NCBI GenBank assembly: GCA_024695575.1
Contig: JAILHY010000143.1
Location: 1-48,717 of the forward strand
DNA length: 48,717 nucleotides
Origin: Lachnospiraceae bacterium
GTDB lineage: Bacteria; Bacillota; Clostridia; Lachnospirales; Lachnospiraceae
Reading direction: 5' to 3'
Positions within the stretch are counted from its first letter, which is position 1. Each line of letters begins with the position of its first letter. The notes beneath the pieces were generated by a model. The model saw only the letters and a list, made by a program, of their open reading frames with translations. It did not search any database and had not been told where the DNA came from. Shown here one piece after another: positions 1-13,378 of this stretch. A program made the position numbers and the translations under genes.

Positions 1-474
1 CGGGATCATCAGCATGGCATGAGCCTTGTTCAAAAGCTCCGACTGCTTAACCTTAACTGCCATTAACTGATAGATTGTGTTAAAAGGCTGTTTCTGAATA
101 CCGGTGCGAGCATATAGCTCATCCTCTGGAATCGCTTTGTACACATCCTTATCGATGCCTTCGGTACGCGAATCCCTGTAGGCTACGGCAGGACCCAGCA
201 TCTTGTCATTTTCATCCAAAAGAACAAAGTCGACACCCCATGTGTCGATACCCACGGAAACAGGAATCTTGCCGATCTCTTTACACTTACGCATGCCCGT
301 AAGAATGCTCTTAAACAAAGAATCCGTATCCCAGATGAGAGTGCCGTTAACTTCCTTGTTGCCGTTCTCGAAGCGATAAATTTCCTCGGTTACCATGGTG
401 TTATTCTCGATATGGCTGAGGATATGACGTCCGGAGGATGCGCCTATATCTATGGCGAGATAATATTTTGACAT
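1..474 (-). CDS. rhaB: Rhamnulokinase, N-terminal part (3' end outside window)
   Basis: FGGY-family sugar kinase, expected to phosphorylate L-rhamnulose at C1 in the cytosol. The 158 visible residues start MSKYYLAIDIGASSGRHI, the phosphate-binding loop typical of rhamnulokinases, and continue with an ENGNKEVNGTLIWD stretch and a GVDTWGVDF-like segment (here SVGIDTWGVDFVLLD), both characteristic of RhaB. The start is the ATG at 474, and the gene runs off the left edge. It lies 29 bases downstream of the small basic protein and is the last visible gene of the microcompartment operon. It points to rhamnose as a substrate of the pathway. Other FGGY kinases such as fuculokinase are possible, but the DIGASSGR signature favours RhaB. 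Confidence 0.85.
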   Translation of the reverse strand, partial: MSKYYLAIDIGASSGRHILSHIENNTMVTEEIYRFENGNKEVNGTLIWDTDSLFKSILTGMRKCKEIGKIPVSVGIDTWGVDFVLLDENDKMLGPAVAYRDSRTEGIDKDVYKAIPEDELYARTGIQKQPFNTIYQLMAVKVKQSELLNKAHAMLMIP

Positions 475-503: not shown

Positions 504-731
504 TTACAGCAAATATACCGGCAGTTCATCCGTGATCGTGTAGATCTTCTGCCCCGTTACAGCTTTTGTTTCAGATTTAACTGCGGGTTGTTCCTTAACC
601 TGTTTATCTTCTGTCTTCACGGCAGCCTTCGGAGTCGTTTTCGCCTTTACCGCAGTCTTGGCAGGAGCCTTCGTAGGTGCAGCCTTCTTCGCGCCTTTAC
701 CGTTACTTCTGATAACACCTTCAAGCGACAT
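504..731 (-). CDS. Small Lys/Ala-rich basic protein of the microcompartment operon, unknown function
   Basis: A 75-residue protein that I do not recognise. A strong ribosome binding site (AAGGAGGAAG, about 5 bases before the ATG) and a position between the DeoR gene and rhamnulokinase make it a real gene. Residues 1-9 (MSLEGVIRS) are followed by a low-complexity region of about 48 residues rich in Lys, Ala, Thr and Pro, probably disordered and very basic. The C-terminus is an ordered-looking hydrophobic tail, QKIYTITDELPVYLL. The layout of disordered linker plus short conserved-looking tail resembles adaptor or scaffold peptides more than an enzyme. A role in cargo organisation, positioning or nucleic-acid binding is speculation. 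Confidence 0.75.
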   Translation of the reverse strand: MSLEGVIRSNGKGAKKAAPTKAPAKTAVKAKTTPKAAVKTEDKQVKEQPAVKSETKAVTGQKIYTITDELPVYLL

Positions 732-747
732 ATAAACTTCCTCCTTC

Positions 748-1515
748 TCACACGCCGGGATACTTAATCTCTATGTTCTTTTCCGCAAAGAAATCCATCC
801 ATTCATCGGAGGGTTTCGCATCCGTTACAACTATATCCACCCGGTTGCAATCGCATATCTGTGAAAAAGCAACCGTATCGAATTTCGAATTGTCAACCGC
901 CAGAATGTGAACCTTGGATGAATCAAGCATGGACTGCTTAACTTCCGAAAACAGCTCGTTTCCGTCGGTTATTCCCTTTCTCATATCAAATCCCTTGCAG
1001 GAAATGATGGCCTTGTCTGCGTTAAAAGAAAGAATGCTTTCTTTGGCACGGGCTCCCACCAAAGCAAGATAATTCTCGCGAAGAGTGCCGCCGGTTGAGA
1101 TTATGTCCCACCCGGGCTGATCCGCAAGTTCCGTCAGGACTTCGATGGAATTGGTAATGACTGTTAAGCGTTTCTTTGGTTTAAGAGCTGAAGCTATGGC
1201 AACACCCGTGGTTGAAGGATCGATAAAAATGTGATCTCCGTCGGAAATAAGTTCCGTCACAAGCTCCGCGATCTTTCTTTTGCCGTCGGTGTTTTTCTTT
1301 TTGCGGACGGTGAAAGGCATTTCCACGCCGCCGGATTCGTTTAACACCGCGCCGCCGTAACTCTTGATACAAAGGCCTTCCTTATCAAGCTTGTCAAGGT
1401 CACGCCGGATTGTTTCCTCGGAAACATCAAAAAGAAGGCTGAGTTCCGAGACTACCACCTTCCTGTCTTCCTGCAGTTTTTCAAGTATCAGTCGTTTTCT
1501 TTCCGCTGCCAGCAT
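748..1515 (-). CDS. DeoR-family transcriptional regulator
   Basis: 255-residue cytosolic repressor. An N-terminal DeoR helix-turn-helix is visible (LAAERKRLILEKLQEDRKVV, then VSEETIRRDLDKLDKEG), followed by a sugar-phosphate sensor domain with DGDHIFIDPSTTGVAIA and the ISTGGTLRENYLALVG motif. DeoR proteins of this kind usually bind a phosphorylated sugar intermediate and derepress the operon. The ATG at 1515 was chosen because it begins the HTH and follows GAGGATCTT; the frame stays open about 230 bases further upstream but overlaps the shell gene. It sits inside the operon, 7 bases after pduT. The 10-bp repeats upstream of the dehydratase promoter are its most likely operator, by inference. 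Confidence 0.88.
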   Translation of the reverse strand: MLAAERKRLILEKLQEDRKVVVSELSLLFDVSEETIRRDLDKLDKEGLCIKSYGGAVLNESGGVEMPFTVRKKKNTDGKRKIAELVTELISDGDHIFIDPSTTGVAIASALKPKKRLTVITNSIEVLTELADQPGWDIISTGGTLRENYLALVGARAKESILSFNADKAIISCKGFDMRKGITDGNELFSEVKQSMLDSSKVHILAVDNSKFDTVAFSQICDCNRVDIVVTDAKPSDEWMDFFAEKNIEIKYPGV

Positions 1516-1522
1516 AAGATCC

Positions 1523-2071
1523 TCACAGTATCTTGGCCCAAAGATTGCTGTCGGGGTTGGCGATGACGGAGGAATCAAGGAACATTCCGTTTTCGCCGAC
1601 AGAGGCTTTGGCCTTCTCGATGGCAGCTTCGCAAGCCGCCACTTCACCGGTAATGAGCATATATGATTTGCCGCACATGCCCTTGGCGATCCTGAGCTCG
1701 ATAAGATCAACAATGGCGGTCTTGGCTGCAACATCCGCTGCAACGATTATCGCACTGGCATCGTAGGTTTCAAGTACTCCGAGAGCCCTGGGATTCTCTA
1801 CATGAGTCGTTCCGTAAATAGCAGGGAAAATGGACTCATCCGGATTACCGAGGACAAAACTGTCGATGTACTCGTCGGGTCTTGTGGCCATGGCACGCTC
1901 TACAGCTGCCTTCACCGCCGAAAGCTCACCCGTTATCAGGGCAATATACTTTCCGGGGCAGACAGTTTCCGCTTCAAGCAGTTTAACGCTTGCTGTCTTA
2001 ACCATCTGATCCGCCGCCGTGATACCTGCCGACACCGTCTTAAATTCGATCATTCCGATTGCCTGAGACAT
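1523..2071 (-). CDS. pduT: Tandem-domain BMC shell protein, PduT-like
   Basis: 182-residue shell protein with two BMC domains (about residues 4-88 and 95-180), forming pseudohexameric trimers in the microcompartment shell. Start MSQAIGMIEF matches PduT closely. Cys38 in ETVCPGKYI aligns with the PduT cysteine that holds a 4Fe-4S cluster in the trimer pore, so the protein is expected to pass electrons across the shell. Its neighbour is the PduS-like flavin/Fe-S protein, the usual partner of PduT, 6 bases upstream. RBS AAGGAATAAAACCAC precedes the ATG. Confidence 0.9.
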   Translation of the reverse strand: MSQAIGMIEFKTVSAGITAADQMVKTASVKLLEAETVCPGKYIALITGELSAVKAAVERAMATRPDEYIDSFVLGNPDESIFPAIYGTTHVENPRALGVLETYDASAIIVAADVAAKTAIVDLIELRIAKGMCGKSYMLITGEVAACEAAIEKAKASVGENGMFLDSSVIANPDSNLWAKIL

Positions 2072-2077
2072 GTGGTT

Positions 2078-3400
2078 TTATTCCTTCTCTATAATAACGA
2101 ATCTTTCGTTTATTTCCAATACCCTGCCGCTAATGGAAGCGTGGATCCCGACGGATAATCCCGAAGCGGGAGTTGCGATACAGTCACCTTCTTTTACAAG
2201 GTCTCCGACCTTCACACAGGGGACTGCGGGTGCTCCTATATGCTGTGACAGCCCGATGGATACCCTGTTTGCGGGTACTATCGCATCATTAAGCCTTGCT
2301 TCTTTGTCATATTCGGATAATCCGAGGCGGGCCAGAAGCCTCTTGGTCGGAACCTTCCTGTATTCCCTTGCCTCGTTAACGGGCTTTGGTTCCTTGGGTA
2401 CGGGTTTGATCCCGTTCTTTCTCAGTTCACTCTTAACCTCCGCCATCATGGAACGGGGATTAAGTCCCTGGGGGCATGAGAAATTCTCACACAAACCGCA
2501 GGACGAACAGTACATTGTATTTAAAAAAGCTTCCGTATTACCTGCATCTCCGTTGGCCACCGCTCTCATAAACAGGTGAGGCTCGATGGGGTGTCCCAGA
2601 TTATGTCTGGGACAGAGATCCGTACAGGTCATACACTGGCAGCACGCGCTTGCGGCTCTCGCTTTAGCGATCTTAAAGTCCGTTTTTTTGCGCTGGACCA
2701 GCTTATGATCCCTCGGAAGCACTATTATCGCATTTGTAGTTTTGGTAACCGGATCGGCCGAAGATTTGAAACTTCCCATCATGGGACCGCCGATAAGGTA
2801 TACCGGATCATCCACAGTTACGCGACCTGCCGACTTTAAAGCATCGCCGATGCTCATGCCGACGGGCACTCTTACCGTAACGGGATCGGAAACCTCACCC
2901 ACTATGGTCACAAGCTTTGAAGTCACGGGATGATCATTTAACGCTCTGTAGGTGTTGTACATGGTCTCCACGTTAAACACCGCAACGCCCTGCTCTATGG
3001 GGATTCCGCCGGGACGAACGACTCTTCCCGTAGTCTCATAGATCAGAACAACCTCGTCACCTGCAGGGTAAGAGGATTTTAACTTCTTAACGGTGATGCC
3101 CTTAAACTCCGGAAGGATCGCCTCAATGGCATCCACGGTTTCCGCATACTCGGCCTTGATACCGATTATGGCGTTCTTGGCGTTTAAGGTTTCTTTTACA
3201 ATGGAGAATGCCTTAAGAATCTCGCGGCATTTCAGCAAAAGAAGCTGTCTGTGAAGCTTCAAAAGCGGTTCACACTCAGCACAGTTAAGAATTATAGTAT
3301 CAGCCTTGTCCGATAATTTACCGTATGTGGGAAAGCCGGCGCCACCTGCTCCGACTACTCCGTTTTCTCTTAGTATCTTACTGAGAGTTTCGATATCCAT
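2078..3400 (-). CDS. pduS: PduS-like flavin/iron-sulfur NADH dehydrogenase (RnfC-like)
   Basis: 440-residue electron-transfer protein related to RnfC and the NuoF fold. The N-terminal glycine-rich motif GVVGAGGAGFPTYGKL marks the nucleotide/flavin site. Two 4Fe-4S ligand sets follow, CCQCMTCTDLCP and CSSCGLCENFSCP. The C-terminus is a lipoyl/biotinyl-like barrel (VKVGDLVKEGDCIATP). In Pdu systems PduS recycles cofactors and donates or accepts electrons through PduT in the shell. Here, with a glycyl radical enzyme instead of B12, cobalamin reduction is not needed, so redox balancing of NADH is the likelier job. ATG at 3400 is favoured because MDIETLSKIL begins the domain. Confidence 0.88.
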   Translation of the reverse strand: MDIETLSKILRENGVVGAGGAGFPTYGKLSDKADTIILNCAECEPLLKLHRQLLLLKCREILKAFSIVKETLNAKNAIIGIKAEYAETVDAIEAILPEFKGITVKKLKSSYPAGDEVVLIYETTGRVVRPGGIPIEQGVAVFNVETMYNTYRALNDHPVTSKLVTIVGEVSDPVTVRVPVGMSIGDALKSAGRVTVDDPVYLIGGPMMGSFKSSADPVTKTTNAIIVLPRDHKLVQRKKTDFKIAKARAASACCQCMTCTDLCPRHNLGHPIEPHLFMRAVANGDAGNTEAFLNTMYCSSCGLCENFSCPQGLNPRSMMAEVKSELRKNGIKPVPKEPKPVNEAREYRKVPTKRLLARLGLSEYDKEARLNDAIVPANRVSIGLSQHIGAPAVPCVKVGDLVKEGDCIATPASGLSVGIHASISGRVLEINERFVIIEKE

Positions 3401-3407
3401 GGTACGT

Positions 3408-3680
3408 TTACTTGCTCCACTCCGGCGTAGGATCGTCAATGATACCAACGATGGCTGCATCTATGGGAGAGCCTTCCTGACCAGTACCGATACGGGCAGC
3501 GCTTCCTTGTGCCACAAGAACATATTCACCGATTCCGGCGCCTATGTTGTCGATGGCAACAACCTGTCTGTTTTCGCCGTTCATGATGCTTACTGGTTCA
3601 ATGATCATGAACTTGTTACCGATAAGATTATCCTGTTTACGCGTACTTACAACGCTTCCTGTTACTTTTCCGATGATCAT
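3408..3680 (-). CDS. eutN: EutN/CcmL-type BMC vertex protein
   Basis: 90-residue pentamer-forming protein that caps the vertices of the microcompartment shell. The start MIIGKVTGSVVSTRK and the middle DNIGAGIGEYVLVAQGSAAR are the standard EutN/PduN/CcmL signatures. Length fits the family (85-100 residues). The ATG overlaps the PduL stop codon (ATGA), indicating translational coupling. Confidence 0.92.
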   Translation of the reverse strand: MIIGKVTGSVVSTRKQDNLIGNKFMIIEPVSIMNGENRQVVAIDNIGAGIGEYVLVAQGSAARIGTGQEGSPIDAAIVGIIDDPTPEWSK

Positions 3681-4324
3681 ATTATGTAAACCAAATCTCC
3701 CTGCTTGATAGTGCTGGCATTTGCTTCGTCCGTGTCTATGTGCATCTCAAGCGTAAAGCTCTTGTCCACACGGATCTTAACATGTTCAAATACGGTACCG
3801 CGGTCATTCTCCGCACGCACACGTACGTAATCTCCGTCTTTCAGGTTGCATTTTGCTGCATCCTCCGGAGACATGTGGATGTGTCTTGCTGCGATTATGC
3901 AGCCTTCATTAAGATAAATGGCGCCTTTGGGCCCTACAATTGCTATAGGCGCAGACCCCTGCACATCACCCGATTCTCTCACGGGCACTGTGATGCCAAG
4001 CTTGCGCGCATCCGTCAGACTGATCTCTACCTGAGTCTTGCTCCGGGTAGGTCCCAGCACTCTGACATTTTCTATGGCTCTCAGCTTAAGCCCCACTATT
4101 GTGCAGCATTCTTCGGCGGCAAACTGTCCGCCCATAAGATCTTTCTTTTTGGTGAGCTTGTGTCCCGGTCCGAAAAGCGTTTCCACATCCTTTTCCGTTA
4201 AATGGATGTGACGGTTACTTACCCCTACAGGGACAGGAAAGCCCGTTGTATGGCCTTCCTGTTCCTTTATACAGGAGATAATCATCCGGGTTAAAGACTC
4301 AACGTCGATTCCCGTAGTGCTCAC
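3677..4324 (-). CDS. pduL: Phosphate propanoyltransferase PduL
   Basis: 215-residue BMC-type phosphotransacylase, converting propionyl-CoA plus phosphate to propionyl phosphate and CoA. This recycles CoA inside the shell and supplies acyl phosphate for ATP synthesis outside. Two PduL domains are seen with the metal-binding histidine motifs VSNRHIHLT and AARHIHMSP, followed by HIDTDEANAS near the C-terminus. The first 20 or so residues (GIDVESLTRMIISCIKEQE) form an amphipathic helix of the kind used as an encapsulation peptide. The start is a GTG with GGAGGACTACT in front of it. Confidence 0.93.
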   Translation of the reverse strand: MSTTGIDVESLTRMIISCIKEQEGHTTGFPVPVGVSNRHIHLTEKDVETLFGPGHKLTKKKDLMGGQFAAEECCTIVGLKLRAIENVRVLGPTRSKTQVEISLTDARKLGITVPVRESGDVQGSAPIAIVGPKGAIYLNEGCIIAARHIHMSPEDAAKCNLKDGDYVRVRAENDRGTVFEHVKIRVDKSFTLEMHIDTDEANASTIKQGDLVYII

Positions 4325-4355
4325 AGTAGTCCTCCGTTAACAAACCGAAATACAA

Positions 4356-4634
4356 TTATTTGATCTTCGGTAAAATAGCCTCAACATCGGTGTGAGGGCG
4401 AGGAATTACGTGCTGAGCAACGAGTTCACCAAGGCGAGCAGCGTTGGTAGCGCCTGCTTCTACTGCAGACTTAACTGCGCCTACATCTCCGCGAACCATA
4501 ACGGTTACGAGACCGGATCCGATCTTCTCGGTACCTACAAGGATTACGTTTGCAGCCTTGCACATGGTATCTGCAGCTTCGATAGCAGCTGTGAGACCTC
4601 TGGTTTCAACCATTCCTAAAGCTTCCTGTGTCAT
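4356..4634 (-). CDS. BMC-H shell protein, PduA-like
   Basis: 92-residue hexameric shell protein, a canonical single BMC domain. Start [20 protein letters not shown] and [18 protein letters not shown], with the pore segment KIGSG, match PduA/PduJ-type proteins. It ends [19 protein letters not shown] very strong RBS (TAGGAGGAAATC) suggests high expression, as expected for the main facet protein. It is the third of three consecutive BMC-H genes, separated from the previous one by 77 bases with no clear element beyond the RBS. Confidence 0.95.
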
Positions 4635-4711
4635 TTTGATTTCCTCCTAAAAATGAAATTGATTTGGTTTTTAAGTTTATATTTCAACACCTGTACGGTG
4701 AAGAAAGCAGT

Positions 4712-5041
4712 TTATTCTCCGCCCTTTAAGAGCTCTGTGTAGAGGTCCTTGCCAAGGCGTTTGGCTGACAAAGCAACCATTTTCTTTATTTCGTCCGAAG
4801 GTGCGGGGATAACTCCGTATGCAGCCATTATGTGTCCGTTTACCTTCGTGATGTTGCAGGCCGCTTCAACCGCCGCTCTGCAATCTGAGACCTCACCCTC
4901 CACAATAAGGGTAACAAGCCTTCCTCCCAGCTTTCTTTCCCATGTAAGGAGCTTAACATTGCTTGCCTTACACATGGCATCCAGGGATTCGATGGCTGCC
5001 ACGACTCCGGATACTTCTATAAGTCCATATGATCCTGCCAT
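4712..5041 (-). CDS. BMC-H shell protein with C-terminal helix
   Basis: 109-residue single BMC-domain protein (MAGSYGLIEVSGVVAAIESL, pore region ERKLGGRLVTLIVEG). It diverges from the PduA-like neighbour. After the usual VIPAPSDEIKKM end it carries about 20 extra residues (LSAKRLGKDLYTELLKGGE) that look helical, possibly lining the lumen or binding cargo. RBS GGAAAGGGAAAG. It is 14 bases after the extended BMC-H gene. Confidence 0.9.
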   Translation of the reverse strand: MAGSYGLIEVSGVVAAIESLDAMCKASNVKLLTWERKLGGRLVTLIVEGEVSDCRAAVEAACNITKVNGHIMAAYGVIPAPSDEIKKMVALSAKRLGKDLYTELLKGGE

Positions 5042-5055
5042 TTTCTTTCCCTTTC

Positions 5056-5490
5056 CTAATTAGTATCGAAGCCGCAGATCTTAAGCATCTTGAGCGTATC
5101 TTCAACGGGCCTCGGAATAATGTGGCTCGTAACCACGCCGCTTACCTGTTCTGCCATTCTGCGTCCTGCTTCAACCGCTGCCGTTACATCCGAAACCGAG
5201 CCTCTGAACTTGATGGTAACAAGAAGAGGAACGGGAAGAGTATCGGCATTGGCCGGTTTGTTTTTATCAAAGGGTTCGAGGGTGACATTCGCTGCCTTGC
5301 AACCGGCATCTGCGGCCATAAAGGCACACACGAGGCCGTACACCTCAAGAAACCCTACTGCGCGGTCATCTACCGTTGTTTCTTCAACCTTTGACTGTCC
5401 CAGGAACTCGGGGGCTTCCGATCTGGTCTGTGTAAATGACCCGGACTGTTTGCTGTTGGCAGAAGTTTTCTTTTTCTTTGAATCAGCCAT
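5056..5490 (-). CDS. BMC-H shell protein with basic N-terminal extension
   Basis: 144-residue shell protein. Residues 1-42 form a Lys/Ser/Gln-rich, probably disordered extension (MADSKKKKTSANSKQSGSF and onward). Residues 43-140 are a BMC domain (RAVGFLEVYGLVCAFMAADA ... SHIIPRPVEDTLKMLK). The domain has an insertion before its second strand (PFDKNKPANADTLPVPLLV), near the pore loop. Extended BMC-H proteins occur in GRM-type loci; the extension may project from one face of the hexamer. It sits between the alcohol dehydrogenase and the other two BMC-H genes. Confidence 0.9.
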   Translation of the reverse strand: MADSKKKKTSANSKQSGSFTQTRSEAPEFLGQSKVEETTVDDRAVGFLEVYGLVCAFMAADAGCKAANVTLEPFDKNKPANADTLPVPLLVTIKFRGSVSDVTAAVEAGRRMAEQVSGVVTSHIIPRPVEDTLKMLKICGFDTN

Positions 5491-5506
5491 TACTTATATC
5501 TTTCCT

Positions 5507-6721
5507 TTAGTCTGCTACTACCGCGATTTTGAGGCCGGTTTGTGCTGCGGCTTTCTTGAACGCCTCATCCACCTGTGACAAAGGATATTTGTCGGTGATG
5601 AGTTCGCTAATGGGAAGGCCGATAGCCTTGGCTCCCTTAAGGAAGTCAAAGGTCGTAGCATAATCTCTCAAGGTGTATACCCAGCTTCCAACGATTGTAA
5701 GCTCCTTCGAGCAGATATCGAAGTGAGGATTGATGGTCGCGTCGCCGCCGTTTATAAAGAAACCAAGTTCGCAAAGGCCGCCGCCGTTACGTACGAATTT
5801 GTAAATGTTTGAATGGCCTGCAGGGCTTCCTGTACACTGGAATGCAAAATCCGCAAGATGTCCGCCGAATTTACTTTCAACGCCCTTAGCCATATCCTCG
5901 ATGCCGCTGTAATCCTTGAAATTAACGGTATCTGTTGCGCCAAGCTTCTTTGAGAACTCAAGACGCGCGGGATTTCCGTCTACAGTGATGATATTCTGTA
6001 CCCCCATAGTCTTAAGTACTGCAACGCAGATAAGACCGATGGGGCCGCAACCCTGAACAACAACTCTTGAATTAAACTTAAGGATTCCGGTACTCTTGGC
6101 TCTCTCTACAGCATGTACAAGCACTGCACAGGGCTCGATGAGGATTCTTGAATCGAGGTCAAGATCGGATACGTTAAAGAAAGTGGATCCGAGCGCTCCG
6201 CGAACAAGAATATAATCTGCAAACCAGCCGTTTGTGTGTACTCCGTCATCAGGGAGGAGTCCGTATACATCTGCACCGCCCACGTTCTTTTTGTTAAGGT
6301 CGAACATGGTGATATCGGGGTTATCCTTAAAGATCATGCAGGTTACAATCTTGTCGCCCACATGTACGTCCTTGCCGGCAGAGTCCTTGGTAACATTCTT
6401 ACCAAGCTTAACGATCTCACCGGTTCCCTCGTGTCCGAGAGCTACAGGGATGAGACCGAAAGGATCACGCTTATATTCGTGTGAATCGGTTCCGCAGATT
6501 CCGCAGCCTTCAACCTTTACAAGGATGTCGTCGTCGCCAACCTCAGGCATGGGGAATTCTTTAACTTCCATCTTGCCAAGCTCGGTGAGCATTGCAACAC
6601 GGGCCTTGGAAGGGATGGGGCCGGAAGCATGGGACACGGAGGATGTGGCTGCTCCGGTGCCGGAAAGGTTCGAAAGAACCTGCTTGACTATTGCTTCTAT
6701 TTGTTGATTACTGATATCCAT
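5507..6721 (-). CDS. Zinc-dependent alcohol dehydrogenase (MDR family) with N-terminal encapsulation peptide
   Basis: 404-residue medium-chain dehydrogenase. The catalytic zinc region GCGICGTDSHEY and GHEGTGEIVKLG and the Rossmann motif VQGCGPIGLICVAVLK are visible. Residues 1-20 (MDISNQQIEAIVKQVLSNL) are a predicted amphipathic encapsulation helix, then a Gly/Ser/Ala linker to about residue 38. It probably reduces propionaldehyde to propanol and may also reduce lactaldehyde to 1,2-propanediol, regenerating NAD+ in the lumen. ATG at 6721 is chosen (RBS GTGGAG); an upstream in-frame start lacks support. This MDR enzyme takes the place of the iron alcohol dehydrogenase found in Pdu operons. Confidence 0.9.
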   Translation of the reverse strand: MDISNQQIEAIVKQVLSNLSGTGAATSSVSHASGPIPSKARVAMLTELGKMEVKEFPMPEVGDDDILVKVEGCGICGTDSHEYKRDPFGLIPVALGHEGTGEIVKLGKNVTKDSAGKDVHVGDKIVTCMIFKDNPDITMFDLNKKNVGGADVYGLLPDDGVHTNGWFADYILVRGALGSTFFNVSDLDLDSRILIEPCAVLVHAVERAKSTGILKFNSRVVVQGCGPIGLICVAVLKTMGVQNIITVDGNPARLEFSKKLGATDTVNFKDYSGIEDMAKGVESKFGGHLADFAFQCTGSPAGHSNIYKFVRNGGGLCELGFFINGGDATINPHFDICSKELTIVGSWVYTLRDYATTFDFLKGAKAIGLPISELITDKYPLSQVDEAFKKAAAQTGLKIAVVAD

Positions 6722-6795
6722 ATTATTCTCCACTTTATTGAAACTATTTACTCCGTTCAAGCGGCACTCGGCCTGACATCTTCCTTCGAAAGATG

Positions 6796-8187
6796 TCATC
6801 TGATACACAGACTGTCTGACATTGTGCAGCGTCTTCTCTTGGTGAATGTAGCTGCGCTTGTAAGTCCCTCGCCGGTACGGCTTGCTATGGTGAATGTAGG
6901 GAAGCCTTCGCCTCCGAAACCAAGAGCTGCGTAACTGGGTCCGTTCTTTACAAGGATCGCAGTATCGATGGCACGTGCATATTCCGTGATACGATCAACG
7001 TTCTTTGAATGGATGTGAGCGCTGTGTCTGTTACCGTGCTCAAGCCATACAGCCTGTTCAACCGCATCCTTAAAGTCTTTGGCTCTTACGATACCAAGGA
7101 TCGGCATCATAAGCTCTGTAGTGATGAGAGGATGTTCCTTGGGGCCTTCGAAGATGATGCAGCGGGTTCCTTCGGGAGCCTTAACGCCTACCATCTCAAG
7201 AAGAACCTTGGCGCTTCGTCCCACGCACTTACGGTTAAGAGCGCCCTTTTCGGTGATAACGGTCTTAGCAAGCTTGTCCTGTACTTCTTTGGAAGCAAGG
7301 TAGCAACCGTTCTCCTCTATCATGTATTTCATAAGTTCATCGCAGATACTTGAAACTGCAACTACTTCTTTTTCAGCTATGCAGGGAAGATTGTTGTCAA
7401 AAGTACATCCGTTAACGATGTCCTTGGCTGCCTTCCTGATATCGGCTGTCTCGTCAACAAGTGCGGGAGGATTGCCTGCGCCTGCGCCGATACCTCTCTT
7501 GCCGCTTGAAAGTACTGCGGTAACAACTCCGGGACCGCCTGTAGCCACCAGAAGCGGAATGTCCTTGTGCTTCATCATGATGGCGCTTGAATCAAGTGTG
7601 GGATTCTCAACTGTAACTGCCACATTGTCGGGTCCACCTGCTTCCAGGGAAGCTTCGTTCACCAGATTGATGGCATACTGTGAAGTCCTGATGGCCTGGG
7701 GATGAGGGTTAAAAACAACCGTATTGCCGCCGGCTATCATTCCCATTGAGTTACAAAGAACCGTCTCACTGGGGTTGGTGCAGGGAGTGATGGCGCCGAT
7801 CACGCCAAAGGGTCCCATCTCAACCAGCGTAAGTCCTCTGTCTCCGGACCATGCAACAGTCTTGATATCCTCTGTTCCGGGAGTTTTTTCGGCTACAAGC
7901 AGGTGCTTTAAGATCTTGTCACCCACGTTGCCCATTCCGGTTTCTTCTACACCCATACGCGCGATGGTCTCGGCATTTTCCTTAATCTTACGGCGTATGA
8001 TGGATATTATCTTTTCTCTCTGATCCATGCTCATGACACGGACGATGCGCTGTGCTTCTTTTGCCTTCTCGATGGCAGTGTTCATATCATCAAACACACC
8101 GTGTCTTGCAGCTGAATCAGCTTTCAGATTAACTCTGGCGATTACCTCGCTTACTACAGCCTTTAACTGGCTTTCAGACATTTCCAT
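6796..8187 (-). CDS. pduP: CoA-acylating propionaldehyde dehydrogenase, PduP-like
   Basis: 463-residue aldehyde dehydrogenase that converts propionaldehyde, CoA and NAD+ to propionyl-CoA inside the shell. The first 18 residues (MEMSESQLKAVVSEVIARV) are a classic encapsulation helix. TPCTNPSETVLCNS, GPGVVTAVLSSGKRGIGAGA and the catalytic Cys269 in NNLPCIAEKE are seen, as in PduP/EutE. RBS AAGGAGACAGTC precedes ATG 8187; a second ATG two codons later is possible. It lies between the aldolase and the alcohol dehydrogenase, completing the aldehyde branch point. Confidence 0.93.
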   Translation of the reverse strand: MEMSESQLKAVVSEVIARVNLKADSAARHGVFDDMNTAIEKAKEAQRIVRVMSMDQREKIISIIRRKIKENAETIARMGVEETGMGNVGDKILKHLLVAEKTPGTEDIKTVAWSGDRGLTLVEMGPFGVIGAITPCTNPSETVLCNSMGMIAGGNTVVFNPHPQAIRTSQYAINLVNEASLEAGGPDNVAVTVENPTLDSSAIMMKHKDIPLLVATGGPGVVTAVLSSGKRGIGAGAGNPPALVDETADIRKAAKDIVNGCTFDNNLPCIAEKEVVAVSSICDELMKYMIEENGCYLASKEVQDKLAKTVITEKGALNRKCVGRSAKVLLEMVGVKAPEGTRCIIFEGPKEHPLITTELMMPILGIVRAKDFKDAVEQAVWLEHGNRHSAHIHSKNVDRITEYARAIDTAILVKNGPSYAALGFGGEGFPTFTIASRTGEGLTSAATFTKRRRCTMSDSLCIR

Positions 8188-8229
8188 GACTGTCTCCTTG
8201 AAAAAGAAAGTGTTATGTAAACCGACAAG

Positions 8230-9099
8230 TTATTTCATTTCAGAAACAACTTTACGAACGATCTCTGCGATCATTGCTTCGTTGATCCCTGCGCCTGCTG
8301 TAGGAACGGAATCGGATCCGGAGTTGCTGAAATCATAGTTGTAACCGGGCATTGTACGCATAACCTCATCGTTGCAGCCACTGCAGTTTCCGCCGCAGTT
8401 GTGGCAGTTGTCCTTGCCTGCATTCAGGCACACATTCGCGGGATGCTTACCGGGCATACCGAATTTACGTCTGATCTCGTAAAGCTTCTTGATGTTAGCC
8501 TTGTCGAATTCCTTGGGTCCGCCGAGCATCTTTGACTTGTAAAGGAGCTCTGCATAGAACTCAACGCTCTCCATCTTGTGATATGCTGCAAGAAGGTCTG
8601 TAGACCAGGAAAGAGCGCCGTGGCTCTCAAGTAATACAGCATCAAAGTAAGGAAGGTATTTCTCAAGATTGTCGGGGATCTCCATGGTTGAAGGAGTACC
8701 GTACTCAGCGATGGGCACGCAGCCAAGAGAAATAACGGCTTCGGGCATGATGGGCTGAGTAAGGGGAATTCCCGCAATGGCAAAAGAAGTTGCAAATGTG
8801 GGATGAGCGTGTACTACGGCACCTACATCGGGGCGCTTCTCATATACGCGCATGTGCATCTTTATTTCACTTGAAGGCTTGAAGCCCTTGTTAGCCTGGA
8901 TAACATTTCCTTTTTCATCAACCTTGCAGATATATTCGGGAGTCATAAATCCCTTGGATACGCCGGTAGGTGTACAAAGAAACTCGTGGTCGTTAAGCTT
9001 AACGGAGATATTACCGTCGTTGGCTGCAACCATGTTTCTGTTGTAGATTCTTTTACCGATGTCACAGATCTGTTTCTTGATTTCCATTTCGTTTACCAT
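8230..9099 (-). CDS. Class II sugar-phosphate aldolase (fuculose/rhamnulose-1-phosphate) with Cys-rich linker and C-terminal encapsulation peptide
   Basis: 289-residue enzyme cleaving a 6-deoxy-ketose 1-phosphate to DHAP and lactaldehyde. Residues 1-210 match FucA/AraD-like class II aldolases: NDGNISVKL, the phosphate site TPTGVSKG, catalytic SSEIKMH, zinc ligands in VVHAHPTFA and LLESHGALS. It is about 70 residues longer than FucA. The extension has seven cysteines within about 30 residues (motif CHNCGGNCSGC near residues 232-242), a Gly/Ser linker, and a terminal helix (NEAMIAEIVRKVVSEMK) resembling an encapsulation peptide. Adjacency to rhaB suggests rhamnulose-1-phosphate as substrate; fuculose-1-phosphate cannot be excluded. 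RBS AGGAGGAATAT. Confidence 0.9.
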   Translation of the reverse strand: MVNEMEIKKQICDIGKRIYNRNMVAANDGNISVKLNDHEFLCTPTGVSKGFMTPEYICKVDEKGNVIQANKGFKPSSEIKMHMRVYEKRPDVGAVVHAHPTFATSFAIAGIPLTQPIMPEAVISLGCVPIAEYGTPSTMEIPDNLEKYLPYFDAVLLESHGALSWSTDLLAAYHKMESVEFYAELLYKSKMLGGPKEFDKANIKKLYEIRRKFGMPGKHPANVCLNAGKDNCHNCGGNCSGCNDEVMRTMPGYNYDFSNSGSDSVPTAGAGINEAMIAEIVRKVVSEMK

Positions 9100-9126
9100 T
9101 TTTATATTCCTCCTGCATTTAATGCT

Positions 9127-9193
9127 TCTTAAGATCCTTCGGCTGACTTACGTCATCTCATATTCATTCGATGACCATGCTCAGGATGACGTG
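9127..9193. repeat. REP-like palindromic element inside the BMC operon
   Basis: The 127-base gap between the GTPase and aldolase genes is unusually long for this operon. Read on the minus strand it has CGTCATCCTGAGC at one end and GCCGAAGGATCTTAAG at the other, with a perfect 8-bp inverted repeat ACGTCATC/GATGACGT at 9150-9157 and 9185-9192. The CATCCTGAGC...GAAGGATCTT signature is, as far as I recall, that of dispersed extragenic repeats in many bacterial genomes. It may be a neutral insertion or may form an mRNA hairpin that sets relative expression of the genes on either side. Confidence 0.55.
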
Positions 9194-9226
9194 CCCTTTA
9201 CAGGCCTCATTAATAGTTCTGTCGAT

Positions 9227-9658
9227 TTAGTTCTCTTCTTTTAAATAATTTAATATATCTCCTACGCCCTCTCCTTTAAGGGAGTTAACGTGAAATATCT
9301 TTTTGCAGCCCGCGATGGAAAGCCATCTGTCCGCAAGCGGGATATTGGCATCCGGCAGGTCGATCTTGGTCACGATTCCGATGCACTCCCTGTTGGCCTG
9401 TGCCGTTACATTCGGCGGGAACAGTGAGTAAGGTTCGTTGGCAGCAACCAGGATTCCCACCACATCGGCTTCGTAGGTGTAAAGCGCAAGGGCTTTACCG
9501 AGCCTGTGGCTCTGTGCGTATTCACCCGGGGTATCGATAAAGCTTTCATAGTGCTTGACATCCTGGGTCTTGTAATACCTGATCTCTTCACCCTTAAGCG
9601 CCTGGGTGAGAGTGGTCTTTCCGGACATTGACCGTCCCATGAGTATGAGTTTCTTCAT
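9227..9658 (-). CDS. EutP/PduV-like small GTPase
   Basis: 143-residue P-loop protein with GRSMSGKTTLTQ (Walker A), DTPGEY (G3) and VTKIDLPDA (G4, NKxD-like TKID). EutP/PduV proteins accompany microcompartments and have been linked to their positioning or to acyl-kinase activity. The exact job here is not shown by the sequence. Start overlaps the stop of the PduU-like gene (ATGA), so the two are translationally coupled. Length is typical. Confidence 0.87.
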   Translation of the reverse strand: MKKLILMGRSMSGKTTLTQALKGEEIRYYKTQDVKHYESFIDTPGEYAQSHRLGKALALYTYEADVVGILVAANEPYSLFPPNVTAQANRECIGIVTKIDLPDANIPLADRWLSIAGCKKIFHVNSLKGEGVGDILNYLKEEN

Positions 9659-10023
9659 GTTTTGGTAATCTCACAGACGTTGTACCTGAGTCTGTCTCTC
9701 GTGTAATCGAGCATGGCGTGCATGGAAGCCTCGACTTCGCTGACGGAGCCCGTGATTATAAGTGATCCGCTGAAGCGATCCACAAATCCCAGTGTGATAC
9801 CGCTGGCCTTAAGTGCCACATCCGCCATGATTATTGCCGTTTCCGAAGGTGTTACGGTGACGACACCGATAGCAGCCTTGTCATAATCGATCCTCGGGTC
9901 AAGTCCCAGCTTCTCGTAAAGCACCTTGTCGGGGCTTGCAATTATGTGGCAGAGCGTCACCTGACAACCCGGCACATATTCCTGTATTATTCGCATACGA
10001 TCTTCAAGACCGGTTATTTCCAT
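9655..10023 (-). CDS. Permuted BMC-H shell protein, PduU/EutS-like
   Basis: 122-residue shell protein with a circularly permuted BMC domain. The N-terminal segment RIIQEYVPGCQVTLCHIIA forms the beta-barrel plug seen in EutS/PduU. AAIGVVTVTPSETAIIMADV and GFVDRFSGSLIITGSVSEVE are family hallmarks. RBS GGAGGTTAACATAAC before the ATG. It sits directly after the activase and before the GTPase, the same neighbours as in other fucose/rhamnose GRM loci. Confidence 0.92.
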   Translation of the reverse strand: MEITGLEDRMRIIQEYVPGCQVTLCHIIASPDKVLYEKLGLDPRIDYDKAAIGVVTVTPSETAIIMADVALKASGITLGFVDRFSGSLIITGSVSEVEASMHAMLDYTRDRLRYNVCEITKT

Positions 10024-10038
10024 GTTATGTTAACCTCC

Positions 10039-10830
10039 TCATCCACCTATGTGGCACACAAGCTTCGACACGTGCTCCACCTGTTTCTTGAGCATTTCCA
10101 TGTGCTCTGCGGTGGGTGTCTCGATATTGCCCATAGGGTAAGGTCTGTTCAATCCTTCGTACTTTCCTTCTCCGTATCTGTGATAGGGAAGAAGGTGTAT
10201 ATCCTTAACTCCCGGAAGTGAATCCGCAAATCTCGCTATCCCTGCTATTTCCTCGGGAGTATCGTTAAAGGTGGGGATCACGGGAACTCTCACTATAAGT
10301 CTCGTAAGCCCGCTCAGTGCTGTCTTTCTTGCATTTTCAAGCATCAGGTCGTTTCTTTTGCCGCAGAACTTCTCGTGCTTAGCGGGATCCGTATGCTTAA
10401 TGTCAAACAAATATGTATCAAGGTAAGGAAGAATACTTTCGATAACCTTAAAATCCGCAAATCCCATGGATTCCATAGCCGTGTTGATTCCACGGCGCTT
10501 GGCTTCTTTTAACAAGGCCTTCGCGAAATCAGGCTGAAGAAGGCTTTCTCCGCCGGAAAGGGTCAATCCTCCGCCGCTTCTGTAGTAATACTGCCTGTCA
10601 CGTTCAACGATATCCATGACTTCGGCGACGGTCACATCCCTTCCCACGGTCTTAGGTTCTCCAAGTACCGTCATGGTCTCGATCTCGTGACTCTGGGATT
10701 CGGGATTGCAGCACCACTTACAGCGCATTGCACAGCCCTTAAGGAACACTATTGTGCGAATTCCAATCCCATCGTGGATGCTGTATCTCTGTATGTCAAA
10801 GATCCTTCCTTTAACTTCCAAATCGTCCAT
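10039..10830 (-). CDS. Glycyl radical enzyme activase (radical SAM)
   Basis: 263-residue radical SAM enzyme that installs the glycyl radical on the neighbouring dehydratase, using S-adenosylmethionine and a 4Fe-4S cluster. Cluster ligands are in KGCAMRCKWCCNPES (CxxxCxxC), and the SAM-binding GGLTLSGGE motif follows. Many dehydratase activases of this class carry a ferredoxin-like insert with two extra clusters after the CxxxCxxC motif; here that insert is absent and the chain goes straight from NPES to LTLSGGE in about 50 residues. Start ATG 10830 has RBS GGAAGG; a longer frame reaches into the dehydratase gene. It is 19 bases downstream of the dehydratase. Confidence 0.92.
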   Translation of the reverse strand: MDDLEVKGRIFDIQRYSIHDGIGIRTIVFLKGCAMRCKWCCNPESQSHEIETMTVLGEPKTVGRDVTVAEVMDIVERDRQYYYRSGGGLTLSGGESLLQPDFAKALLKEAKRRGINTAMESMGFADFKVIESILPYLDTYLFDIKHTDPAKHEKFCGKRNDLMLENARKTALSGLTRLIVRVPVIPTFNDTPEEIAGIARFADSLPGVKDIHLLPYHRYGEGKYEGLNRPYPMGNIETPTAEHMEMLKKQVEHVSKLVCHIGG

Positions 10831-10849
10831 TCTGTGCCTTCCGTACTTT

Positions 10850-13378
10850 CTATCTGTTAAAAGCCTGCTCAGTACGTCTGATGATATCATCCTGAAGGCT
10901 CTTGGAAAGGGTGGTAAACAACGCGGAGTAACCTGCGACCCTTACCACCAGGTGTCTGTAATTCTCAGGATGTTTCTGTGCATCGAGAAGTGTTTCTCTC
11001 GACACCACGTTGAACTGCATGTGCATTCCCTTCTTGTCAAAGAAGGTGCGTATCAGATCAACGAATTTGTGAAGTCCTTCGTCACCCGCGAGGGCACTTG
11101 GATGGAACTTCTGGTTGAAAAGTGTTCCGTTGCTTGCGATCCCGTGATCAAGCTTGGCTACGGAATTGGCACAGGCCGTTGGACCGTTCACATCGTTGCC
11201 TGCTGTAGGTGAAACACCGTCTGCTATCGGCATTCCCGCCAGACGACCGTCGGGAGTTGCACCGGTTGCGGCTCCTAAAGGCACATTGGCGGATACGGGA
11301 TATAATCCGGCCTGGAACCTTCCGCCCCTGGGATTTCTGTAATTAAGAAGGGGCCTTGTATAGGTATAAGCCACATCTCTTGCAAAGAGATCGACTTCAT
11401 CGATATCGTTACCAAATTTGGGAACTTCCTTAATAAGCTTAAGGATCCTGTCAAAGTTTTCTCTGTCCGCATCCGATACGGATTCGGAAAGGACCTTCTC
11501 CGTAAGCGCCTTCACCTGCATGGGATCGGGAGTTACGCCCTGACGAACAAACTCGGAAGCGATACGCCCCGCAAATTCACGGATGACCGGAGCCGGAGTG
11601 CCCTTGCCGTAGTTAAAAAGAAGGGCTTTCTTAAGCTCTGCCATGGTGATTTTCTTTTGCTCGTAAACAAGTGTCTTAATGGCGTAGAGCGAATCTGCCA
11701 TGTTGGCGATACCAAATCCCTGAGGGCCCGTGAAATTATATACACAACCGCCCTGCTCGGGAGTAAGTCCCCGTTTCATGCAGTCATCAAGAAGACTTGC
11801 AAGGAAAGGAAGGGGTACAAGCTCTGCATGAGCCTTATCTATTGAATTGTCAGCATTTACAAGAAGTGAAATAAAGTAATTCTGCTGAGTCTTATATGCA
11901 TCGTAGAATTCGTCGAAGGTCTTGAAATCCTCCACATTGCCGGTGTGAGGACCGATCTGCTCTCCCGCATCCTCACCGTCTGAGAATACAAGTTCAAGAG
12001 GTCTGCACATGTTGTAGAACGCTGCATCGTGCCAGCCCATGGTCTTGCCGGCTTTCTGAGGTTCCACGCAGCCGATGATGTCGTAATCTCTTGCTTCCTG
12101 TAAGGTAAGTCCCATGCTCATAAGCGAAGGGATGATGACTTCGTCGTTGTAATATGCGGGAAGTCCGATTCCCGTGCGGGTAAGCTCTGCCGCCCTCATG
12201 AGAAGTTCGTAAGGCGAACCGTTCCATACTCTGATGGACAAAGAAGGCATGGGCAGAAATACGTGCATTGATGCGTCTATACACATGAAGGAAAGGTCGT
12301 TGGTGCCATCGAGACCGTTCTCGTGCTGTCCGCCGACAATCATGTTCTGGAACAGGCTGTATCCGGCAAATCCCTTGGCGCTTTCCGCATCACGGCATTT
12401 ATTCAGGTCGTTTAATTTCACAAATACGCAATCTATAAGTTCCTGGGCAAAATCTCTTGTAATCGCGCCCTTGTCCATGTCAGCCTTGAAATAAGGGAAC
12501 ATGTACCGGTCGAATCGTCCGGGTGAAATTGAATGTCCGGATGACTCAAGCTGCAAGAGCTGCTGTACGAACCAGAAGCTCTGACAGGCTTCGTAAAAAC
12601 CGGTGGCAGGTTTCGCAGGTACCCTTGAAAGAACCTCTGCTATCTTTGAAAGCTCTGCCTTGCGTGTCTGATCCGAACACTTATCCGCCATGGCAAGTGC
12701 CAGTTTACGGTATCTTTCCGCATAGGTCATGACCGCGTCACAGCTTATGATCATAGCCTCTAACAGTGTATGTTTCGCTGCATAATCGGCGTCTCCCACG
12801 TTGCAGCATTCCATCTCGGCCTGTGCTTTGGCTTTGATACCTTCAAATCCCAGTTCCAGTACTTCCCAGTATTTGCAGGTAAGATGTCCAACACCGTTGT
12901 AGAAATAGTTGCCCGGTGTGAACATGGCGTGATCGATGGCCTTAAGGGTCTCGGGAGCCATGTAGGAAGCCGCAAGTTCACTGGTGGTCTTACCCTTCCA
13001 GTATCTGTCCGCTTCCTTTATCTCTTTCTTTGCCTTGTCGGAAATATAGAAAGGATCGGCTTCGCGGGTAGCTACGGTATCAAATTCGGCCTCAAGCCAT
13101 TCAAAAGAAAACTCGGGATAAGTCTGACAACCCCTGGGAGCTATGGTCTGTGAACCGACGATAAGCTCGTCGTCACGGATGATAATCGGAATATTCTCTA
13201 AGATATGTTTAAAAGCAAGTGCACGCCTCATTACTATGGGCATACCTTCCGTTGCCTTGTATGACTCGGTGATAAGGACGGCTCGGGATGACTCGATCTC
13301 GGGCATCTTGGCAAAAAGATCGTGAACCAGTTTATCAATACGCTTTGATTTACTGCAACGTGTGCTGTTGAATCCCAT
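10850..13378 (-). CDS. B12-independent propanediol/glycerol dehydratase (glycyl radical enzyme)
   Basis: 842-residue signature enzyme of the microcompartment, dehydrating 1,2-propanediol to propionaldehyde. The thiyl-radical Cys437 and general base Glu439 lie in IIGCVEPQ, and Asp451 (GWHDAAFYN) is spaced from Cys437 exactly as in glycerol dehydratase. His165 (GVGHLTCKYW) and the SSGHSISPGRFD motif supply the other active-site residues. Gly816 in RVAGYSALF is the radical glycine. This set separates it from choline lyase and pyruvate formate-lyase. No encapsulation extension is present at either end, so recruitment must use another route. First gene of the operon, RBS AAGGGAAGT. Confidence 0.95.
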   Translation of the reverse strand: MGFNSTRCSKSKRIDKLVHDLFAKMPEIESSRAVLITESYKATEGMPIVMRRALAFKHILENIPIIIRDDELIVGSQTIAPRGCQTYPEFSFEWLEAEFDTVATREADPFYISDKAKKEIKEADRYWKGKTTSELAASYMAPETLKAIDHAMFTPGNYFYNGVGHLTCKYWEVLELGFEGIKAKAQAEMECCNVGDADYAAKHTLLEAMIISCDAVMTYAERYRKLALAMADKCSDQTRKAELSKIAEVLSRVPAKPATGFYEACQSFWFVQQLLQLESSGHSISPGRFDRYMFPYFKADMDKGAITRDFAQELIDCVFVKLNDLNKCRDAESAKGFAGYSLFQNMIVGGQHENGLDGTNDLSFMCIDASMHVFLPMPSLSIRVWNGSPYELLMRAAELTRTGIGLPAYYNDEVIIPSLMSMGLTLQEARDYDIIGCVEPQKAGKTMGWHDAAFYNMCRPLELVFSDGEDAGEQIGPHTGNVEDFKTFDEFYDAYKTQQNYFISLLVNADNSIDKAHAELVPLPFLASLLDDCMKRGLTPEQGGCVYNFTGPQGFGIANMADSLYAIKTLVYEQKKITMAELKKALLFNYGKGTPAPVIREFAGRIASEFVRQGVTPDPMQVKALTEKVLSESVSDADRENFDRILKLIKEVPKFGNDIDEVDLFARDVAYTYTRPLLNYRNPRGGRFQAGLYPVSANVPLGAATGATPDGRLAGMPIADGVSPTAGNDVNGPTACANSVAKLDHGIASNGTLFNQKFHPSALAGDEGLHKFVDLIRTFFDKKGMHMQFNVVSRETLLDAQKHPENYRHLVVRVAGYSALFTTLSKSLQDDIIRRTEQAFNR

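Follow-up and report, generated by a model that had tools for sequence, protein, structure and literature searches.

A 75-residue protein encoded beside a GRM5 operon is most plausibly (with a probability of about 0.6) an orphan McdB-like adaptor, one that would still bind the microcompartment shell but would no longer be driven by a ParA-type ATPase. The window, the whole stretch of DNA analysed (48,717 nucleotides of contig JAILHY010000143.1), belongs to a Lachnospiraceae MAG (82% complete, 5% contaminated), the one genome from which the orphan adaptor is known. GRM5 is the fucose/rhamnose glycyl-radical microcompartment; to our knowledge, the positioning of metabolosomes is largely an open question, and the McdAB-like pairs encoded nearby have been reported only bioinformatically. 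A recurrent ParA/McdB-like pair is shown here in Lachnospiraceae GRM5 loci, and the window offers a natural case of separation of function, in which the motor and the putative motor-facing motif are lost and the putative shell-facing motif is kept; a two-ended adaptor model therefore becomes testable.

The gene, its locus and its homologues

The open reading frame (504-731, reverse strand) starts with ATG, stops with TAA and is preceded by an AAGGAGG ribosome-binding site (RBS) at 740-746. The features of the locus are:

1..474 (-): rhamnulokinase, 5' part, running off the window (translation; 70% identity to rhaB of locus L004)
504..731 (-): probable orphan McdB-like adaptor gene, 75 aa (ORF and RBS, GRM5 homologues, purifying selection on the tail codons)
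507..560 (-): residues 58-75, VTGQKIYTITDELPVYLL, the conserved C-terminal motif and presumed shell-binding end (PSSM, pS/pN)
561..695 (-): residues 13-57, Lys/Ala/Pro/Thr-rich disordered linker, net +8 (composition; pLDDT about 55)
696..731 (-): residues 1-12, MSLEGVIRSNGK, diverged counterpart of the putative ParA-facing motif MxVGxxSIxRAA (PSSM)
732..747 (-): deoR-to-adaptor junction, 16 bp, carrying the RBS AAGGAGG at 740-746 (window sequence)
748..1515 (-): DeoR-family regulator of the GRM5 locus (Pfam DeoRC and HTH_DeoR)
1523..13378 (-): GRM5 microcompartment operon (ORFs, NCBIfam for some genes, synteny with relatives)

The operon encodes BMC-T, an RnfC/PduS-like protein, EutN, PduL, three BMC-H proteins, ADH, AldDH and an aldolase, and further holds PduV- and PduU-like proteins, an activase and a glycyl radical enzyme; gene names beyond those supported by NCBIfam or synteny are presumptive, having been assigned from what GRM5 loci usually carry.

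The window protein has a net charge of +8, is rich in Lys, Ala, Pro and Thr at residues 13-57 and ends in the tail GQKIYTITDELPVYLL. It gave no match above cut-off in Pfam or NCBIfam, and AlphaFold2, run on a 20-row alignment, predicted no fold (mean pLDDT 59, rising to ~75 only in the last ~15 residues). The original prediction, of an unrecognised, disordered, microcompartment-associated protein of 75 residues with a strong RBS and a Lys/Ala/Pro/Thr-rich middle, lying between the regulator and rhamnulokinase, thus describes the gene accurately. Disorder, biased composition and low hydrophobicity (the last judged from the sequence) are also what is expected of an McdB-like protein.

Because the protein is of low complexity, searching with it directly was unsuccessful: against 397 family genomes and the contig database it returned low-complexity matches only and no relative. 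Homologues surfaced only by way of neighbouring genes, when 80 GRM5 loci were collected via the adjacent BMC-T and the genes following deoR were read. In many of these loci the gene after deoR encodes a ParA-type ATPase, which matches Pfam AAA_31 and CbiA and has a Walker A motif of KGGSGK[ST] with the signature lysine retained; its nearest solved relatives are ParA/Soj proteins, with McdA lower on the list. Adaptor homologues occupy the position of the window gene, after DeoR, in 18 of the 69 other testable GRM5 loci, a presence near other such loci on which the original prediction had staked itself. Since these homologues share both tail and position, the ORF is more than a chance reading frame; it is a genuine gene and not a one-off.

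The homologue lies directly after the ATPase gene in all 18 loci, and overlaps its 3' end in 17. Among GRM5 loci with enough flanking sequence, both genes are present in 18, ParA only in one (L053), neither in 50 and the adaptor alone in none, so that the adaptor directly follows ParA in 18 of 19 ParA-bearing loci and is found in 0 of 50 ParA-less ones; the loci are related and the counts are not independent, but the association is still complete. The window is the sole adaptor-alone locus seen: a place directly downstream of a ParA/McdA-type ATPase, characteristic of McdB-like proteins, is held by the 18 GRM5 homologues and not by the window gene. The family has an N-terminal MxVGxxSIxRA motif, a variable, disordered middle rich in Lys, Ala, Pro and Thr, and a C-terminal ELPxYLL motif. 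Its members are predicted to be McdB-like adaptors between shell and ParA, because this layout is that of the McdA/McdB positioning system and McdB-like proteins are known near GRM loci.

The proposal that the protein is a linker or scaffold attaching cargo to shells therefore needs amending, because every other GRM5 adaptor directly follows a ParA ATPase: a disordered microcompartment adaptor it appears to be, but as the McdB-like partner of a ParA-type ATPase and not as a cargo-to-shell linker. A short conserved tail on a flexible linker within a microcompartment operon would suit a scaffold fixing enzymes to the inner shell face. However, the protein has no enzyme domain, and encapsulation peptides are amphipathic helices fused to an enzyme or core protein, whereas AlphaFold2 predicts no helix even 4 residues long here, the tail included. 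ParA systems, moreover, operate outside the shell, and the GRM5 loci that carry the family, the window excepted, all have a ParA, making the scaffold very improbable.

The basic charge had also been matched to the N-terminal tail of the extended BMC-H protein. Both are indeed basic, but the extension is confined to three same-genus GRM5 loci and most adaptor-bearing loci have a BMC-H without one, and a contribution of the BMC-H tail was rejected on this ground. In the window the extended BMC-H lies at 5056-5490, its basic N-terminal extension of roughly 40 residues containing APE[LF]LGQ; the match in a same-genus relative (G397:C51:58216-58638, locus L085) is reported with one internal TAA.

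A ParA of the BMC clade occurs at E <= 1e-70 in 41 of the 397 family genomes. Of 32 BMC-type ParA loci read (30 from the family, two from the wider class), 23 have an adaptor next door and nine have none there. BMC-type ParA genes without an adjacent McdB-like gene are those of L053, L137, L143, L144, L146, L147, L150, L154, L156 and L158; in adaptor-less loci the next gene is mostly an AraC regulator or a glycyl radical enzyme. Four loci (L160, L162, L174 and L176) carry a ParA/McdB-like pair but show no match to a GRM5 shell gene for about 8 kb around it; the pair adjoins the same iron-ADH gene that many GRM5 loci have after deoR, and these are possibly satellite loci.

Probable loss of the ATPase gene

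Among 18 genomes of the genus, the extended BMC-H of the GRM5 locus is present in three, including that of the window. The other two, G397 and G398, have the intact order deoR-ParA-adaptor-rhaB, and the tails of their adaptors, AVTGQVIYTINDELPVYLL and AVTGQKIYTIADELPIYLL, are clearly orthologues of AVTGQKIYTITDELPVYLL in the window. In these relatives an ATPase gene of ~790 bp separates deoR from the adaptor (L004:5887-6678 and L127:5784-6575); in the window it is absent, and 16 bp lie between the deoR stop and the adaptor ATG. The RBS within this junction resembles an AAGGAGG inside the parA 3' end of the relatives, the remnant expected if, as we infer, almost all of parA was removed in the window lineage. 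In a tree the BMC-type ParAs stand apart from Soj (support 99/98), and those of G397 and G398 fall within the BMC clade, so that loss in the window lineage would be simpler than gain in the others.

No BMC-type ParA was found in the whole assembly, where the sole ParA-type genes are Soj, adjoining a Spo0J-like ParB, and FlhG, adjoining an FlhF-like gene. The adaptor might nevertheless still work with a ParA missed by the assembly or with the chromosomal Soj: the assembly is 82% complete, ParA and adaptor are non-adjacent in some relatives, and an Arg and nearby lysines persist close to the N-terminus, through which some residual ParA contact may occur. Such a partnership appears unlikely, given that both same-genus relatives have ParA inside the locus, that no BMC-type ParA turned up in the assembly, that Soj already has its own ParB, and that the window protein has lost the N-terminal motif found in each of the 39 ParA-linked homologues.

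The two ends of the adaptor

This divergence was quantified with a position-specific score (PSSM) built from the 39 ParA-linked homologues, all of which have Gly4, Ser7, Arg10, Pro(-5) and Leu(-2), with Y, H or F at position -3; the absolute level of conservation comes out somewhat too high, because the homologues were chosen by ParA adjacency and a loose C-terminal pattern, with start codons preferred at the N-terminal motif. The window N-terminus scores 3.9 at its best gapped alignment, compared with leave-one-out scores of 25.3-45.0 for the homologues; 287 of 2000 shuffles equal or exceed 3.9, placing MxVGxxSIxRA at shuffle level. The conserved charged N-terminus that would serve the ATPase is thus reduced to a few basic residues. 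AlphaFold2 places a helix at residues 5-18 of the G397 adaptor, resembling the N-terminal helix reported in H. neapolitanus McdB; for the window protein it predicts no helix, and confidence is low in both models.

In contrast, the last seven residues of the window protein rank first of 40 in the PSSM, with the Tyr at -3 supplying the Y/F within the last five residues that marks non-carboxysome McdB-like proteins. Over the last 19 codons, comparison with the two same-genus homologues gives pS of 0.63-0.89 and pN of 0.07-0.12, which shows purifying selection on the tail; this synonymous divergence spans the whole split from G397 and G398, so selection after ATPase loss in particular is unproven. 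The earlier emphasis on the C-terminal tail was well placed, as it is the conserved part, shared with the GRM5 homologues and under purifying selection.

These contrasting ends bear on whether the gene is a functionless, decaying remnant of a lost McdAB-like pair. The missing motor and decayed N-terminal motif are what such decay would produce; yet the frame is intact, the RBS good, the C-terminal motif the best of 40 and tail pN low against saturated pS, and the N-terminus has diverged without any frameshift. A remnant is accordingly doubtful. A histone-H1/HC2-like DNA-binding protein, suggested by the Lys/Ala/Pro repeats and by the G398 homologue, which matches HC2 weakly (E 7.8e-5), is extremely improbable: the two matching homologues reach 15.1 and 23.3 bits (the latter being G398) against a Pfam cut-off of 40 bits (HC2, PF07382), the window protein has no reported match, and the match follows composition, leaving the conserved terminal motifs unexplained.

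Proposed origin and known systems

The orphan-adaptor reading would derive the protein from an McdB-like adaptor that belonged to a ParA-type (McdA-like) positioning system serving the GRM5 microcompartment. In the relatives, the N-terminal motif presumably engages the nucleoid-bound ParA ATPase and the C-terminal Tyr motif the shell, with a flexible basic linker in between. In the window lineage the ATPase gene between deoR and the adaptor would have been lost and the N-terminal motif would have decayed, the C-terminal motif being retained. Homology and synteny, the missing ATPase of locus and assembly, the lost N-terminal motif and the conserved C-terminal one are established from sequence. 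From these patterns we infer shell binding, ParA contact in the relatives and a present function: the window protein most likely still decorates the shell without driving ParA-dependent distribution, probably as a shell-surface or condensate factor, for example against aggregation, or perhaps through weak passive nucleoid contact via the basic linker. That it has become a stand-alone factor, with the Tyr motif on the shell and a histone-like basic linker on DNA for passive, ATP-free tethering or anti-aggregation, is quite unlikely in that specific form.

In H. neapolitanus, the first 20 residues of McdB bind McdA (PMC12204374), and a C-terminal aromatic residue sends McdB to carboxysomes (PMC11321042). 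Like the McdB proteins of H. neapolitanus and S. elongatus, the window adaptor is biased and disordered with a terminal aromatic motif, but its ParA partner is lost, it lacks Trp anywhere, including the invariant C-terminal tryptophan of alpha and beta carboxysome McdB, and full-length similarity is not claimed. ParA in microcompartment loci had already been noted (PMC4207490), and McdB-like proteins whose tails carry Y/F have already been described beside GRM and PDU loci (PMC11321042). Compared by description, the window protein resembles the latter in its disorder, its microcompartment locus and its C-terminal Tyr/Phe within the last five residues with acidic residues close by; unlike them, it has neither a ParA neighbour nor the conserved N-terminal motif. 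What is new is the state of this copy, with ParA gone, the N-terminal motif lost and the C-terminal motif intact. Literature word searches, which covered subscription papers only in part, found no paper on a GRM5 orphan adaptor or on McdB-like proteins bearing a ParB domain.

A parallel is the orphan alpha-McdB type 2, which lies in the cso operon without mcdA and lacks the charged N-terminus, in genomes that have a second McdAB elsewhere (PMC8262871). The window adaptor is likewise kept in a shell operon without the ATPase gene and has an altered N-terminus; it differs in that no second McdAB was found in the assembly, its C-terminal aromatic is Tyr and not Trp, and GRM5 is not a carboxysome.

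Like ParB/Spo0J, the family is a ParA partner encoded after parA, although the window protein itself has no ParB domain. Three adaptors lying directly after ParA, those of L132 (= L160:9518-10063), L135 and L159 (= L180:8792-9415), contain a ParB_N domain inside, scoring 36-52 bits against a Pfam cut-off of 26.3 and flanked by the terminal motifs of the family, which hints at common ancestry or a fusion with ParB. McdB-like and ParB partners may thus be linked in evolution.
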